A stretch of 64,000 nucleotides of DNA from Phenylobacterium sp. Its GTDB lineage: Bacteria; Pseudomonadota; Alphaproteobacteria; Caulobacterales; Caulobacteraceae. Position 1 is the stretch's first letter. Every line of letters starts with the position of its first letter. The notes under the pieces were generated by a model. It was given only the letters and a program-made list of their open reading frames with translations, ran no database searches and was not told the origin of the DNA. Shown here in pieces: positions 46,785-51,732 of this stretch. The stretch is from assembly GCF_022402485.1 (NCBI RefSeq), contig NZ_JAKRSA010000010.1:58457-122456 (forward strand). Reading direction: 5' to 3'. The translations under genes and the position numbers were made by a program.

Positions 46785-47677
46785 GCCTGAAGATTCTGCA
46801 GTTCGGTGCCACCGGCCAGTTTGCCCGGGAGATGCTGGATCGCGCCGGTCCTGGCGTGGAGATCACCGCGCTCTCCCGCGCCGAGGTTGACCTCACCGAT
46901 CCGGACGCCATTGCCCGGGCCATCGGCGAGGCCGGCGATACCGACCTTGTGGTCAATGCCGCCGCCTATACCGCCGTCGACAAGGCCGAGGCTCAGCCGG
47001 ACCTGGCCTACGCCGTCAACGCCTGGGCCCCGGCCGCCATGGCCAAGGCTTGCCAGGCACGAGGCCTGCCCCTGCTGCATGTCTCCACCGACATGGTGTT
47101 TTCAGGCCACAAGGCCGGCGCCTATCTGGAGACCGACGCCCCGGCCCCCCTGCACATCTACGGCGCCTCCAAGCTGGCGGGCGAGCAAGCGGTGCTGGGC
47201 GCCTGCGACCGGGCCCTGGTGATGCGGGTCTCGTGGCTGTTCTCGGCCTATGGCCAGAATTTCCTGCAGATGATGCTGCGGCTGGCCAAGACCCAGCCGC
47301 TGCTCAAGGTGGTGGACGACCAGCGGGCCTGCCCCACGGCCAGCGGCGACCTGGCGGCCTTCATCCTCAGCCAGGGTGATCGCCTGGCCAAGGCCCCGGC
47401 CGGTGCCCGGGAATGGGGCCTGCTGCATGTGGTCAATGCCGGCGTCGCCAGCCGCTATGACATGGCCCAGGCGATCTTTGCCCAGACACATGCTGAGGCC
47501 CCGCCGGCCATGGAGCCGGTGCCCACCAGCGCCTTCCCGACCCCGGCCCGCCGGGCGCTGAACGCGGTGCTGGACACAGGGCGCATGCAGGATGTCTTCT
47601 CCCTGCAACTGCGCCCGTGGCAAGAGGCGCTGGAAGAGGTTGTGGCCCAGCTGACGGGTCAGAAGGAGCGGGCGTGA
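46781..47677 (+). CDS. rfbD: dTDP-4-dehydrorhamnose reductase
   Basis: RfbD reduces dTDP-4-keto-L-rhamnose to dTDP-L-rhamnose. The 298-residue protein has [13 protein letters not shown] for the nucleotide loop, [12 protein letters not shown], and [14 protein letters not shown] with the Tyr-x3-Lys pair. It overlaps rfbB and rfbA by 4 nt each. It matches the reductase, not the epimerase, by fold and motifs. Confidence 0.95.
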
Positions 47678-48570
47678 GACGCGGCATCATCCTGGCGGGG
47701 GGCTCTGGAACCCGGCTGCATCCGCTCACCCTGGCGGTCTCCAAGCAGCTTCTGCCGATCTACGACAAGCCGATGATCTACTATCCCCTGTCGGTGCTGC
47801 TGCTGGCGGGCGTGCGGGAAATCCTGATCATCACCACGCCGGAGGACCAGGCCGGCTTCAAGCGCCTGCTGGGGGACGGGTCTCAGCTTGGGGTGCGGTT
47901 CGAGTTCATCGTCCAGCCCAAGCCCGAGGGCCTGGCCCAGGCCTATCTGCTGGGTGAGGAGTTCGTGGCCGGGGAGCCCAGCATCATGGTGCTCGGCGAC
48001 AACATCTTCTTTGGCCAGAACTTCTCCCAGATGCTGCGCGCCGCCGATGAGCGGGTCGAGGGCGCTACTGTCTTCGGCTATCCGGTCAACGACCCGGAGC
48101 GCTATGGCGTCGTCGAGCTGGGCGAGGGCGGCAAGGTGCTTGGCATCGAGGAAAAGCCTGCCCAACCGAAGTCCAACTATGCGGTGACCGGGCTCTATTT
48201 CTATGACGGCAAGGCCAGCGAATACGCCAAGACGCTGAAGCCGTCCCACCGGGGCGAGCTGGAGATCACCGCGCTCAACCAGGTCTATCTGGACGCGGGC
48301 GCGCTGAATGTGGAGCTGCTGGGCCGGGGCTTTGCCTGGCTGGACACCGGCACCCATGACAGCCTGATCCAGGCCGGCGAACTGATCCGCACCCTGGAAC
48401 AGCGCCAGGGCCTGCGCATCGGCTGTATCGAAGAGGTGGCCTATTCCAAGGGCTTCATCGACCGCCACCAGCTGGCCGATCTCGGCCGCGCCCAGGCCAA
48501 GGGCGAATACGGCCAGTACCTGATCCGGCTCTCCGAAGGCATGGGGTCAGGTGCCGAACCCGCCGAATAG
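47674..48570 (+). CDS. rfbA: Glucose-1-phosphate thymidylyltransferase
   Basis: RfbA makes dTDP-glucose from glucose 1-phosphate and dTTP. The 298-residue protein opens [18 protein letters not shown], the nucleotidyltransferase signature. It also has [26 protein letters not shown] and [10 protein letters not shown] near the C-terminus. The start is a GTG that overlaps the rfbD stop by 4 nt and has AAGGAG at good spacing. Confidence 0.96.
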
Positions 48571-48583
48571 GCGGGAAAGGGGT

Positions 48584-49219
48584 TTAGTCGACCCAGAGGT
48601 CCTGGGCCTCGCCCTTGCGGTTCAGGGCGCGGACGGCGCGTTTGACCACGGCGATCAGGCGCTCGCGCCGGGCGATCTCGTCATAGGTCATGGCACCCCG
48701 GGCCAGGCCCTCCAGCAGGAAGCGGCCCAGGTCACGGCTGGTCTGGAAGCGCGGGTCGCTGCCGGCCTGGGTCAAGGCCAGGAACCGCTCGCCCACCTGA
48801 TTGCGGTCAAAGGCGCTCTGGGCGTTGGCCAGGCGGGTGCGCAGCATCGGGTCGGTGCGGGCGGCGGCCTCCAGCTCGGCGAAGGCCACGAACGGGGTTT
48901 CGTGCAACAGGGACCAATAGGCGTCGATGGCATGTTCGGCCGCATCAACGCCGGGGGCCGACGGGCTGGAGGCGGCCTGCTCGAACAGGCGGGCCCGCTC
49001 GACCTCGATGTGGCTGACCGCAGCCTCCACCAGCTCTTCGCGGCTTGAGAAGTGGTAGAGCATGGCCCCGCGGGTCAGGTTGGCCGCCTCGGCGATCAGG
49101 GCGTTGGTGGCCGCGTGATATCCCACCTCGGCGAACAGGCGCATGGCCGCGTCCAGAATCCGGGCGCGGGTGCGGCGAGACTTCGGGGTCTCCTTGGCGG
49201 GATAGGTTCTGGCGTCCAT
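48584..49219 (-). CDS. TetR/AcrR family transcriptional regulator
   Basis: The product is a 211-residue regulator. The N-terminal TetR HTH (about 20-65) includes RARILDAAMRLFAEVGYHAAT and LTRGAMLYHFSSREELVEA. The C-terminal ligand-binding domain is all-helical, with unknown ligand. It converges on rfbA and is divergent from the LpxH-like phosphoesterase gene, which may be a target. I chose the ATG two codons after a GTG; both are possible. Confidence 0.92.
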   Translation of the reverse strand: MDARTYPAKETPKSRRTRARILDAAMRLFAEVGYHAATNALIAEAANLTRGAMLYHFSSREELVEAAVSHIEVERARLFEQAASSPSAPGVDAAEHAIDAYWSLLHETPFVAFAELEAAARTDPMLRTRLANAQSAFDRNQVGERFLALTQAGSDPRFQTSRDLGRFLLEGLARGAMTYDEIARRERLIAVVKRAVRALNRKGEAQDLWVD

Positions 49220-49359
49220 TTCCACGGGGCAGACTTCAATCAGAGTGCGGCCGACATATGGCGCACAGGGCTGCAGCGCCAGTGTTGCAGTGCGGTTTCA
49301 TCAAAGCGACATGCAATCAGCCTAGGCGAGCGTCAAATGCTGGCGCTGCGGAGGCGTTC

Positions 49360-50223
49360 GTGACCGATCTGGGAATCCGACGTTATCGGACGGTGTTCGT
49401 TTCCGACGTGCATCTGGGCACGCGGGGCTGTCAGGCTGAGATGCTGCTGGACTTCATCCGGCACATGGAATGCGACACCCTCTATCTGGTCGGCGATATC
49501 GTTGACGGCTGGAAGATGAAATCCGGCTGGTACTGGCCCCAGTCGCACAATGACGTGGTGCAGAAGATCCTGCGCCTGGCCCGCAAGGGGGTGAACGTCG
49601 TCTATATCCCCGGCAATCACGACGACCGGATCCGCGACTTCTGCGGCATTCATTTCGGCGGGGTCGTGGTGGCCCGGGACGCGATCCACGAGGGTGCCGA
49701 CGGCCGGCGGTTTCTCGTCACCCATGGGGACGAGTTCGATGGGGTGGTACAGCACGCCAAGTGGCTGGCCTTCCTGGGGGACTATTCCTACCGGGCGCTT
49801 CTGTCGGCCAATACCCTGTTCAACCGGGTGCGGCGGCGCCTGGGCTTTGGCTACTGGAGCCTGTCGGCCTATCTGAAGACCAAGGTCAAAAACGCCTTGC
49901 ACTTCATCGAGAACTTCGAGGGCGCGGTGGCCGAAGAGGCCCGGCGGCGCGGGGTGGACGGGGTGATCTGCGGCCATATCCACAAGGCCGAGATGCGCCA
50001 GATCGAGGACATCCTCTACATCAATGACGGCGACTGGGTCGAAAGCTGCACGGCGCTTGTGGAGCATATGGACGGGCGCATGGAGATCCTGGAGTGGGCC
50101 AAGCTGCGCAGCTGGTCGGCCGTGCGTGAGGCTCACAGCGCCGGAGAAGCCCCTGAACTCCCACTACTGAGCCCTGAGCCCGTGGCGCAGCCCACACCCG
50201 TCGCGGCGACGGCAGCGGCCTGA
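49360..50223 (+). CDS. LpxH-like UDP-2,3-diacylglucosamine hydrolase family metallophosphoesterase
   Basis: The product is a 287-residue calcineurin-fold phosphoesterase. Metal-binding motifs are SDVHLG, GDIVDGW, GNHDD, THGDEFD and GHIHKAE in order. It is related to LpxH, but many alphaproteobacteria use LpxI for lipid A, so the substrate may be another nucleotide-lipid or sugar phosphate. GGAGG lies 5 nt before the GTG start, which decides it. It is followed 51 nt later by a TetR-HTH/glycosyltransferase fusion, suggesting a shared envelope-lipid function. Confidence 0.9.
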   Translation: MTDLGIRRYRTVFVSDVHLGTRGCQAEMLLDFIRHMECDTLYLVGDIVDGWKMKSGWYWPQSHNDVVQKILRLARKGVNVVYIPGNHDDRIRDFCGIHFGGVVVARDAIHEGADGRRFLVTHGDEFDGVVQHAKWLAFLGDYSYRALLSANTLFNRVRRRLGFGYWSLSAYLKTKVKNALHFIENFEGAVAEEARRRGVDGVICGHIHKAEMRQIEDILYINDGDWVESCTALVEHMDGRMEILEWAKLRSWSAVREAHSAGEAPELPLLSPEPVAQPTPVAATAAA

Positions 50224-50258
50224 GCTGGCGGACGTTGATTGACACCCGCCAAGGCTCG

Positions 50259-50275
50259 TGACAGTGAGACTGTCA
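50259..50275 (+). promoter_or_regulatory. Perfect palindromic operator at the start of the HTH-glycosyltransferase gene
   Basis: TGACAGT-GAG-ACTGTCA is a perfect 7+3+7 inverted repeat. Its last base is the A of the proposed ATG start codon. A TTGACA lies 15 nt upstream (50239-50244). The size suits a TetR-type dimer. Confidence 0.65.
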
Positions 50276-51732
50276 TGAGTGACGAATCCGAACTGCAAGG
50301 CGACGCCCGCGACCGTCAGAAGGCCGCGACCCGAGACCAGATCCTGCGGGTGGTCGGTGGTCGGCTGGAGAGCGGCCCCCTGGACGAACTGTCCTTTGCC
50401 GACATCGCCAAGGACGCCGGGGTCGGCGAGCGCACGGTCTATCGCCACTTCCCCACCCGGGAAGCCTTGTTGGGTGCCTATTTTGCCTGGGCCCAGACCC
50501 AGGCCACCCTGCCCCTGGCCCCGCCTGTCGCCGAGGCTCCGCCGCAACCTAAACCTGCCCCTGCGCCGACAGCCGCCAAGTCCCCGGCCCAGCGGATGTG
50601 GGAGCCCGCCGCGCCTGTGGAGGATGTCCAGCGGCCCATGCGCATCCTGCTGGCCACCGATGCCTGGGAGCCGCAGGTCAATGGGGTGGTGCGCACCCTG
50701 ACCCGGGTGGTGCAGGAACTCACCGCCCTGGGTCACCAGGTCGAAGTGATCAGCCCCGACCAGTTCAAGACCCTGCCCCTGCCCACCTATCCGGAGATCA
50801 AGGTCGCCATCGGCGCCTATGAACCGGTGCAGGAGCGGTTCAAGGCCTTTGAGCCAGAGGCCATCCATATCGCTACCGAAGGGCCCATCGGCCTGGCCGC
50901 CCGGCGGATCTGCGTGGAATGGAAGCTGCCCTTCACCACCAGCTACCACACCCGGTTCCCGGAATATGTCTCGGCCCGCCTGCCGCTGCCCCTGTCGGTG
51001 GGCTACACCTATATGCGCTGGTTCCACCGGCCCTCCGGGCGGTTGATGGTGGCCACGCCGACCATGCGCGATGAGCTGACCCGCCATGGGTTCCGCAACA
51101 TCTCCTCCTGGTCCCGGGGGGTAGACACCGAAATGTTCCATCCCCGGCGGGAGGGTGAGAAGGACATTTTCGCTCACCTGCCCAAGCCGATCTTTCTCTA
51201 TGTGGGCCGGGTGGCGGTGGAGAAGAACATCGAGGCGTTCCTCGGCCTCGACCTGCCAGGCACCAAGGTGGTGGTGGGCGATGGCCCCCAAAAGGACGAG
51301 CTGGCCGAGCGTTATCCGACGGCGGTGTTCACCGGCTCCAAGTTTGGCGATGAGCTCTCGGCCCACTTCGCCTGCGCCGACGTGTTCGTGTTCCCCTCGC
51401 TCACCGACACCTTTGGCCTGGTGATCCTTGAGGCCATGGCCTCGGGCACGCCGGTGGCGGCCTATCCGGCGCCGGGTCCCATCGACATCATTCCAGGCTC
51501 CGGGGCCGGTGCCCTGGCGGCTTCGGCCACCGAGGGTCTGAAGGAGGCTTGTATGGAGGCCCTGGCGCTGGACCGGCGAGCGGTGCGGGCCTTTGCCGAA
51601 ACCTTCTCCTGGACCGCCTGCGCCGAGGATTTCGTGCGCAATCTGCAGCCCTATCCTGAGCCGGAGAAGACCCGGTTCTGGCGCCGGCTCCGCCGTCTGG
51701 CCCGGGTGCGCCGCCGGCCAAAGGCAGCCTGA
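50275..51732 (+). CDS. Fusion of TetR-type DNA-binding domain and GT4 glycosyltransferase
   Basis: The protein has 485 residues in one open frame. Residues about 15-75 form a TetR-type helix-turn-helix (TRDQILRVVGGRLESG, then IAKDAGVGERTVYRHFPTRE). Residues about 78-120 are a Pro/Ala-rich linker in place of the TetR ligand-binding domain. From Met122, MRILLATDAWEPQVNGVV opens a GT-B family 4 glycosyltransferase, ending with FPSLTDTFGLVILEAMASG, similar to SqdX/MgtA-type lipid glycosyltransferases. An internal ATG at 50638 with GGAGG 14 nt upstream could also give the enzyme alone. Sugar and acceptor are unknown. No frameshift is seen. Confidence 0.9.
   Translation: MSDESELQGDARDRQKAATRDQILRVVGGRLESGPLDELSFADIAKDAGVGERTVYRHFPTREALLGAYFAWAQTQATLPLAPPVAEAPPQPKPAPAPTAAKSPAQRMWEPAAPVEDVQRPMRILLATDAWEPQVNGVVRTLTRVVQELTALGHQVEVISPDQFKTLPLPTYPEIKVAIGAYEPVQERFKAFEPEAIHIATEGPIGLAARRICVEWKLPFTTSYHTRFPEYVSARLPLPLSVGYTYMRWFHRPSGRLMVATPTMRDELTRHGFRNISSWSRGVDTEMFHPRREGEKDIFAHLPKPIFLYVGRVAVEKNIEAFLGLDLPGTKVVVGDGPQKDELAERYPTAVFTGSKFGDELSAHFACADVFVFPSLTDTFGLVILEAMASGTPVAAYPAPGPIDIIPGSGAGALAASATEGLKEACMEALALDRRAVRAFAETFSWTACAEDFVRNLQPYPEPEKTRFWRRLRRLARVRRRPKAA

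Follow-up and report, generated by a model that had tools for sequence, protein, structure and literature searches.

Organization of the locus

The analysed window, a stretch of 64,000 nucleotides of a Phenylobacterium sp. contig, revealed on its forward strand a reading frame running from an ATG at position 50275 to a stop codon ending at 51732. It encodes a protein of 485 aa that joins a TetR-type helix-turn-helix (HTH) domain via a linker to a GT4 glycosyltransferase, an arrangement found in frame at 51 loci. The initial annotation of this DNA, made from the sequence alone, had described the frame as such a fusion, and its coordinates as well as the Pfam matches for both domains agreed with that description. 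Upstream on the same strand lies a metallophosphoesterase gene (49360–50223, start codon chosen by hand), which had likewise been announced as LpxH-like. Its product stayed far below the LpxH cut-offs (47.3 of 134 and 46.3 of 190 bits), and by its synteny with agt, as described for the pairs in PMC9239053 and PMC4796936, it is probably PlcP. A divergent stand-alone TetR gene (48584–49225, reverse strand) is a conserved neighbour in Phenylobacterium and Caulobacter; among the best 80 of 467 named loci, 66 of the 74 fused and all six unfused ones had a match to it. The proximity to rfbBDA also claimed for the fused gene held insofar as RfbA is encoded at 47671–48567, but the other TetR gene and the phosphoesterase gene lie in between. 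Directly in front of the fused gene, we identified a -35-like box TTGACA (50239–50244, forward strand) and a palindrome, TGACAGTGAGACTGTCA (50259–50275), which ends on the A of the start codon.

Though a plcP-like gene precedes the fused gene in the window, none was found upstream in 23 of the 74 fused loci among the best 80 of 467 named loci, 22 of these revealing no match and L076 a match elsewhere. Where plcP was found by pattern (36 of 51 loci), its distance to the fused gene was 40–66 nt. A plcP homolog was found in 23 of 25 genomes searched, in 14 of these apart from the fused gene, while G034 and the outgroup G058 gave none. Since plcP is often located elsewhere, the fused gene has a promoter of its own. 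The best Pho box at the plcP gene of the window matched 9 of 14 letters and was not significant (0.48 in 200 shuffles). Where plcP lies away from the fused gene (L295–L307), Pho-box-like direct repeats were often seen upstream of it, the best in L296 (12 of 14 letters).

Domain architecture of the fused protein

Based on Pfam, the structure model, and substitution rates, the HTH domain comprises residues 10–76 (50302–50502) with the recognition helix at about residues 52–58; the TetR_N match covers residues 36–68 with 35.9 bits (cut-off 24), which places the protein among TetR-type HTH proteins. It is followed by a Pro/Ala-rich linker of residues 77–119 (50503–50631), which is variable and partly disordered according to alignment, dN/dS, and model, and by the glycosyltransferase domain of residues 122–485 (50638–51729), detected as Glyco_transf_4 (78.3 bits) and Glyco_trans_1_4 (69.1 bits), both above their cut-offs, and also indicated by model, Foldseek, and catalytic residues. 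A first model, for which just close relatives had been aligned, was of low quality (mean pLDDT 65) and was set aside; the model used here, calculated from 51 rows, reached a mean pLDDT of 85. It displayed helices at residues 4–33, 41–48, 52–58, and 62–76 in the HTH part, pLDDT values below 50 at residues 80–100, so that this piece of the linker is predicted to be disordered, a GT-B-like domain thereafter, and a C-terminal helix at 464–478. Among solved structures, the top Foldseek hits were GT4-type enzymes, with MshA first. Neither Pfam nor the model revealed a TetR ligand or dimerization domain between HTH and glycosyltransferase, linker and enzyme following the HTH directly, so the ligand domain is missing as had been noted before. 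The basic C-terminal helix and tail (residues 464–485, 51664–51729), which are alike in fused and unfused members of the family, likely make contact with the membrane. Apart from this locus, three frames of the same genome (421, 528, and 445 aa; contigs C5, C17, and C21) had two TetR_N matches each and are perhaps tandem TetR proteins.

A fusion created by a sequencing error was rejected, as the identical in-frame fusion occurs at 51 loci and at 74 of the best 80 of 467 named loci, two sets that overlap; the fusion is thus natural. The further suggestion that an internal ATG preceded by GGAGG might yield the enzyme alone as a second product fared less well: GGAGG is present, but 14 nt separate its end from the ATG of Met122, which is far for a Shine-Dalgarno sequence. 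Since only 6 of the 51 fused genes carry a Shine-Dalgarno-like core ahead of this position and the ATG is replaced by CTG in L018, the internal ribosome site is not conserved, and the idea of a second product finds no support.

Distribution of the fusion

In a sample of the family, 142 of 149 genomes had a match. The fusion was present in 24 of 24 genomes of the window's own genus (in G035 only after inspection of locus L060) and in 3 of 3 genomes of genus g25, while none of the other 115 matching genomes carried it. These were judged by the start of the alignment, which lay at residue 40 or later, and part of them were inspected as loci; the earliest-starting match (G070, read as L177) was unfused. 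Another scan of the own genus revealed the fusion in 35 of 36 genomes, split over contigs in G002 and cut by a contig end in G008, and no fused gene was found in G019. At the level of the class, 114 of 289 genomes matched, and apart from the window's own, no match began before residue 51. Thus, the reservation that homologs might always start at Met122 applies outside the fused clade, as in these 114 class genomes, but not inside it. A scan of named loci, limited to the best 80 of 467, resulted in 74 fused members, titled Phenylobacterium (most of them), Caulobacteraceae, or broader MAG names, and six unfused ones, all from Caulobacter. Taken together, these results confirm the fusion and show it to be conserved. 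A profile of the fused HTH produced only weak matches of 22–28 bits in the fetched unfused loci, in frames whose size and strand fit the divergent TetR neighbour, as was confirmed for L142–L147. Among the literature matches listed, mainly open-access, no title described a TetR-glycosyltransferase fusion.

Selection on the HTH

In 12 hand-picked close pairs, dN/dS ranged from 0.00 to 0.28 for the HTH and from 0.03 to 0.19 for the glycosyltransferase, and the linker value exceeded that of the HTH in 7 of the 11 pairs in which both could be computed. Pooling 1167 of 1275 pairs (108 with a dS of at least 1.2 were omitted) gave 0.335 for the HTH, 0.691 for the linker, and 0.184 for the glycosyltransferase. 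Residues R53, T54, Y56, R57, P60, and T61 were invariant in the 45 sequences of alignment A1 (45 of 51 fused rows); a further alignment, A2, had forced stand-alone TetRs onto the glycosyltransferase and was discarded. The HTH is therefore under purifying selection.

A palindrome across the start codon

The strongest evidence on the function of the HTH, absent from the initial annotation, is the palindrome TGACAGTnnnACTGTCA across the start codon of the fused gene. Among the best 80 of 467 named loci, its pattern was found in 70 of the 74 fused members and in none of the six unfused ones; of the four fused loci without it, L104 and L120 had 9 and L130 had 10 of 12 letters in place, and L129 could not be placed. 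Within the 51 fused loci, all 12 letters matched in 24, at least 11 in 39, and at least 9 in all 51. As start codons in this set were fixed by the motif TG[TCA]CATG, conservation of the right arm and the ATG is partly given by construction, from which the count of 70 of 74 against 0 of 6 is independent. The left arm had no part in this choice and still matched on average 5.5 of 6 letters compared to 1.5 in shuffles, the letters at -15 (G), -13 (C), and -12 (A) being invariant and most flanking positions having little information. The TTGAC of the -35-like box was found at almost constant spacing from the start codon in 47 of 51 loci. In L017, L021, and L025, a second, imperfect copy of the palindrome lies upstream.

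The 3.08-Mb genome harboring the window contains the exact palindrome once; allowing one mismatch added four sites, compared to one for the reversed control. Exact copies occurred in 33 of 60 genomes of the genus (control 3 of 60), and beyond the genus in 9 of 102 genomes of the family, weaker sites in these whole-genome scans being those among the matches listed. Of 37 exact sites in the genus, 30 loci were inspected, of which 23 belonged to the fused gene, 3 preceded an L,D-transpeptidase gene, and 4 lay elsewhere. Shuffles, conservation, and the control of the genome scan rule out a chance palindrome. As is typical of TetR proteins, a palindromic candidate operator is thus located near the protein's own gene. 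Given the selection on the HTH and the conserved palindrome, this operator-like site makes direct gene regulation by the fused protein likely, first of all of its own gene. That much of the earlier proposal, according to which a DNA-binding envelope-lipid enzyme could sense its sugar donor or product and regulate genes directly, is supported at the level of sequence; the palindrome bears on the regulation and not on the sensing.

Identity of the enzyme

Fused proteins carry the motifs GRVAxEKN and FPSxTDTFG and the His-Asp dyad by which Agt/GTcp enzymes are defined in PMC8231724, in the window as GRVAVEKN (residues 311–318), FPSLTDTFG (373–381), His225, and Asp378 of the glycosyltransferase domain. 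H225, R281, R312, K317, T379–G381, E386, and W446 were fixed in all 51 rows and D378 in 49, L056 and L057 of genus g25 having Glu instead; for GTcp, the same change is described as abolishing more than 90% of activity (PMC8231724). According to that source, GTcp is a dimer in solution, accepts diacylglycerol, and uses UDP-Glc, UDP-Gal, or UDP-GlcA as donor. The plcP-agt pairs are described as serving lipid remodelling under phosphorus limitation (PMC9239053, PMC4796936), and Caulobacter crescentus makes glycoglycerolipids in phosphate starvation (PMC6445935, the main text of which names neither plcP nor agt). Judged by motifs and catalytic residues, the fused enzyme probably adds sugars to membrane lipids and is best read as an Agt-like diacylglycerol glycosyltransferase. 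Like Agt/GTcp as described in these sources (PMC8231724, PMC9239053, PMC4796936), it shares GT4 motifs and catalytic residues and in the window lies beside a plcP-like gene, but it adds an N-terminal HTH and linker, an own promoter, and the operator-like site.

Stand-alone TetRs and origin of the fusion

The closest stand-alone TetRs found were proteins of 207 aa from another family of the order (L204–L211), 48–53% identical to the fused protein over the HTH and carrying the helix GERT[VI]YR[HY]FP. In all eight, two tandem copies of the palindrome, 20 bp apart, end at the own ATG, at least one copy being exact in seven. They resemble the fused gene in HTH and in the palindrome at the start codon, but are whole TetRs with a C-terminal domain of their own and have two sites in place of one; the first of their tandem sites overlaps a TTGACA. 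The more distant TetRs L212, with the same letters ERTVYRHFP, and L190 have variant palindromes (TGTCA..TGACA) at their own start, so that the recognition-helix letters alone do not fix the site and a site across the own start is a general trait of this wider TetR group.

In 8 of 13 unfused loci, plcP was found by pattern, and all eight stop codons overlap the agt start (TGATG); the pattern gave no match in the other five. The HTH and the site thus occur jointly in the space between plcP and agt, which is best explained if a TetR gene that regulated itself arrived there and became fused to agt. An origin of the HTH from the divergent TetR neighbour is unlikely, as with the profile of the fused HTH the TetR frames of unfused loci scored 22–28 bits, compared to 79–82 for the 207-aa proteins. 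The best tree, from which L023 and L042 were omitted as near copies, showed two label changes, corresponding to separate fusions in g25 and Phenylobacterium, and a single origin was compatible with the data as well (p-AU 0.34). To our knowledge, enzymes doubling as gene regulators are few and their origins usually lost; here, the pieces are still visible, as a sister genus has the unfused enzyme, the site recurs at a free regulator, and the fusion carries a drifting linker.

Proposed mechanism and alternatives

Since a matching palindrome spans its own start, the enzyme probably switches its own gene off. On balance, we favour the reading that the fused protein is an autogenous DNA-binding enzyme, i.e., an Agt-type glycosyltransferase repressing its own gene. 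Enzyme and DNA-binding domain are united in one chain (Pfam, model, 51 loci), and the conserved palindrome at the own start suggests repression there; counting against it is the higher pooled dN/dS of the HTH relative to the glycosyltransferase. By analogy, the protein is best read as a trigger enzyme in the style of the trifunctional PutA (PMC5293562), which also carries an N-terminal DNA-binding domain on a metabolic enzyme with probable membrane contact. As described there, PutA combines a ribbon-helix-helix with a proline enzyme and its autogenous repression is established, whereas here a TetR-type HTH is combined with a glycosyltransferase and repression and switching are putative. In the proposed sequence of events, an ancestor would have acquired, between plcP and agt, a TetR gene that brought along its promoter and operator; the ligand domain of this TetR would have been lost and the remainder joined to agt. 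In the resulting protein, a pair of HTHs would occupy TGACAGTnnnACTGTCA, located between -35 box and start codon, and prevent transcription. A glycosyltransferase dimer would supply the two-fold symmetry otherwise given by the lost TetR domain, as the related GTcp is dimeric (PMC8231724).

More tentatively, the glycosyltransferase domain may also have replaced the TetR sensor, a part of the proposal we hold to be possible but rather doubtful. In its most speculative step, diacylglycerol appearing through PlcP under phosphate limitation would draw the enzyme to the membrane and off its operator, much as PutA responds to proline. If true, lipid remodelling would turn up its own enzyme, a possible direct link from the state of membrane lipids to transcription, and the fusion offers a test of whether an enzyme domain can take over the sensor and dimer part of a TetR. 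The lack of an upstream plcP at 23 of the 74 fused named loci weakens a switch tuned to PlcP. A weaker form of the autogenous reading, plain autorepression, is similarly a minority view: the operator would be bound according to the amount of enzyme, keeping a steady level, and the glycosyltransferase would be a dimer scaffold and no sensor. The single exact self-site of the genome and the layout at stand-alone TetRs need no sensing of the enzyme's state, but the genus-wide loss of a sensor domain in favour of a substrate-binding enzyme hints at such sensing, by argument only.

Readings in which the fused HTH does not act at this site appear less probable still. Another TetR, e.g., the divergent neighbour, might bind the palindrome while the fused HTH acts elsewhere; its conservation in most fused loci would fit, but it is also present in all six unfused named loci, each without the palindrome, the palindrome occurs with 12, 10, and 10 of 12 letters in L102, L137, and L141, where the neighbour gave no match, and the same palindrome stands at the stand-alone TetRs nearest to the fused HTH, so that we regard this as unlikely. 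Slightly more improbable is that the HTH is a decaying remnant, a mere N-terminal extension with the site as a relic. Its faster change and the imperfect palindrome in 27 of 51 loci point that way; a dN/dS far under 1, the six invariant residues, the higher value of the linker, and at least 9 of 12 letters at every one of the 51 sites argue against it. Finally, we give very little weight to the element being a Pho box or a promoter feature of a leaderless message, with no TetR operator involved, although the gene follows one of a phosphate pathway and CTGTCAT is presumably a Pho-box half-site. A Pho box is a direct repeat, unlike the inverted halves found here, and the element also stands before unrelated stand-alone TetR genes and is absent from the six unfused loci among the best 80 of 467 named loci.

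A second site at an L,D-transpeptidase gene

In one subclade, in which plcP has moved, a near-identical palindrome was found upstream of an L,D-transpeptidase gene, about 125–145 nt from its aligned start; this gene may be a second target of the fused protein. Among nine close orthologs, at least 11 of 12 letters were present at this site in six, 10 of 12 in one, and none in two; the genome of the window harbors only a distant paralog (43%). In L191, L192, L193, L195, L196, L158, and L227–L233, the palindrome lies between the YkuD L,D-transpeptidase gene and an aminomutase-like gene, the C-terminus of whose product we take to resemble lysine aminomutases.
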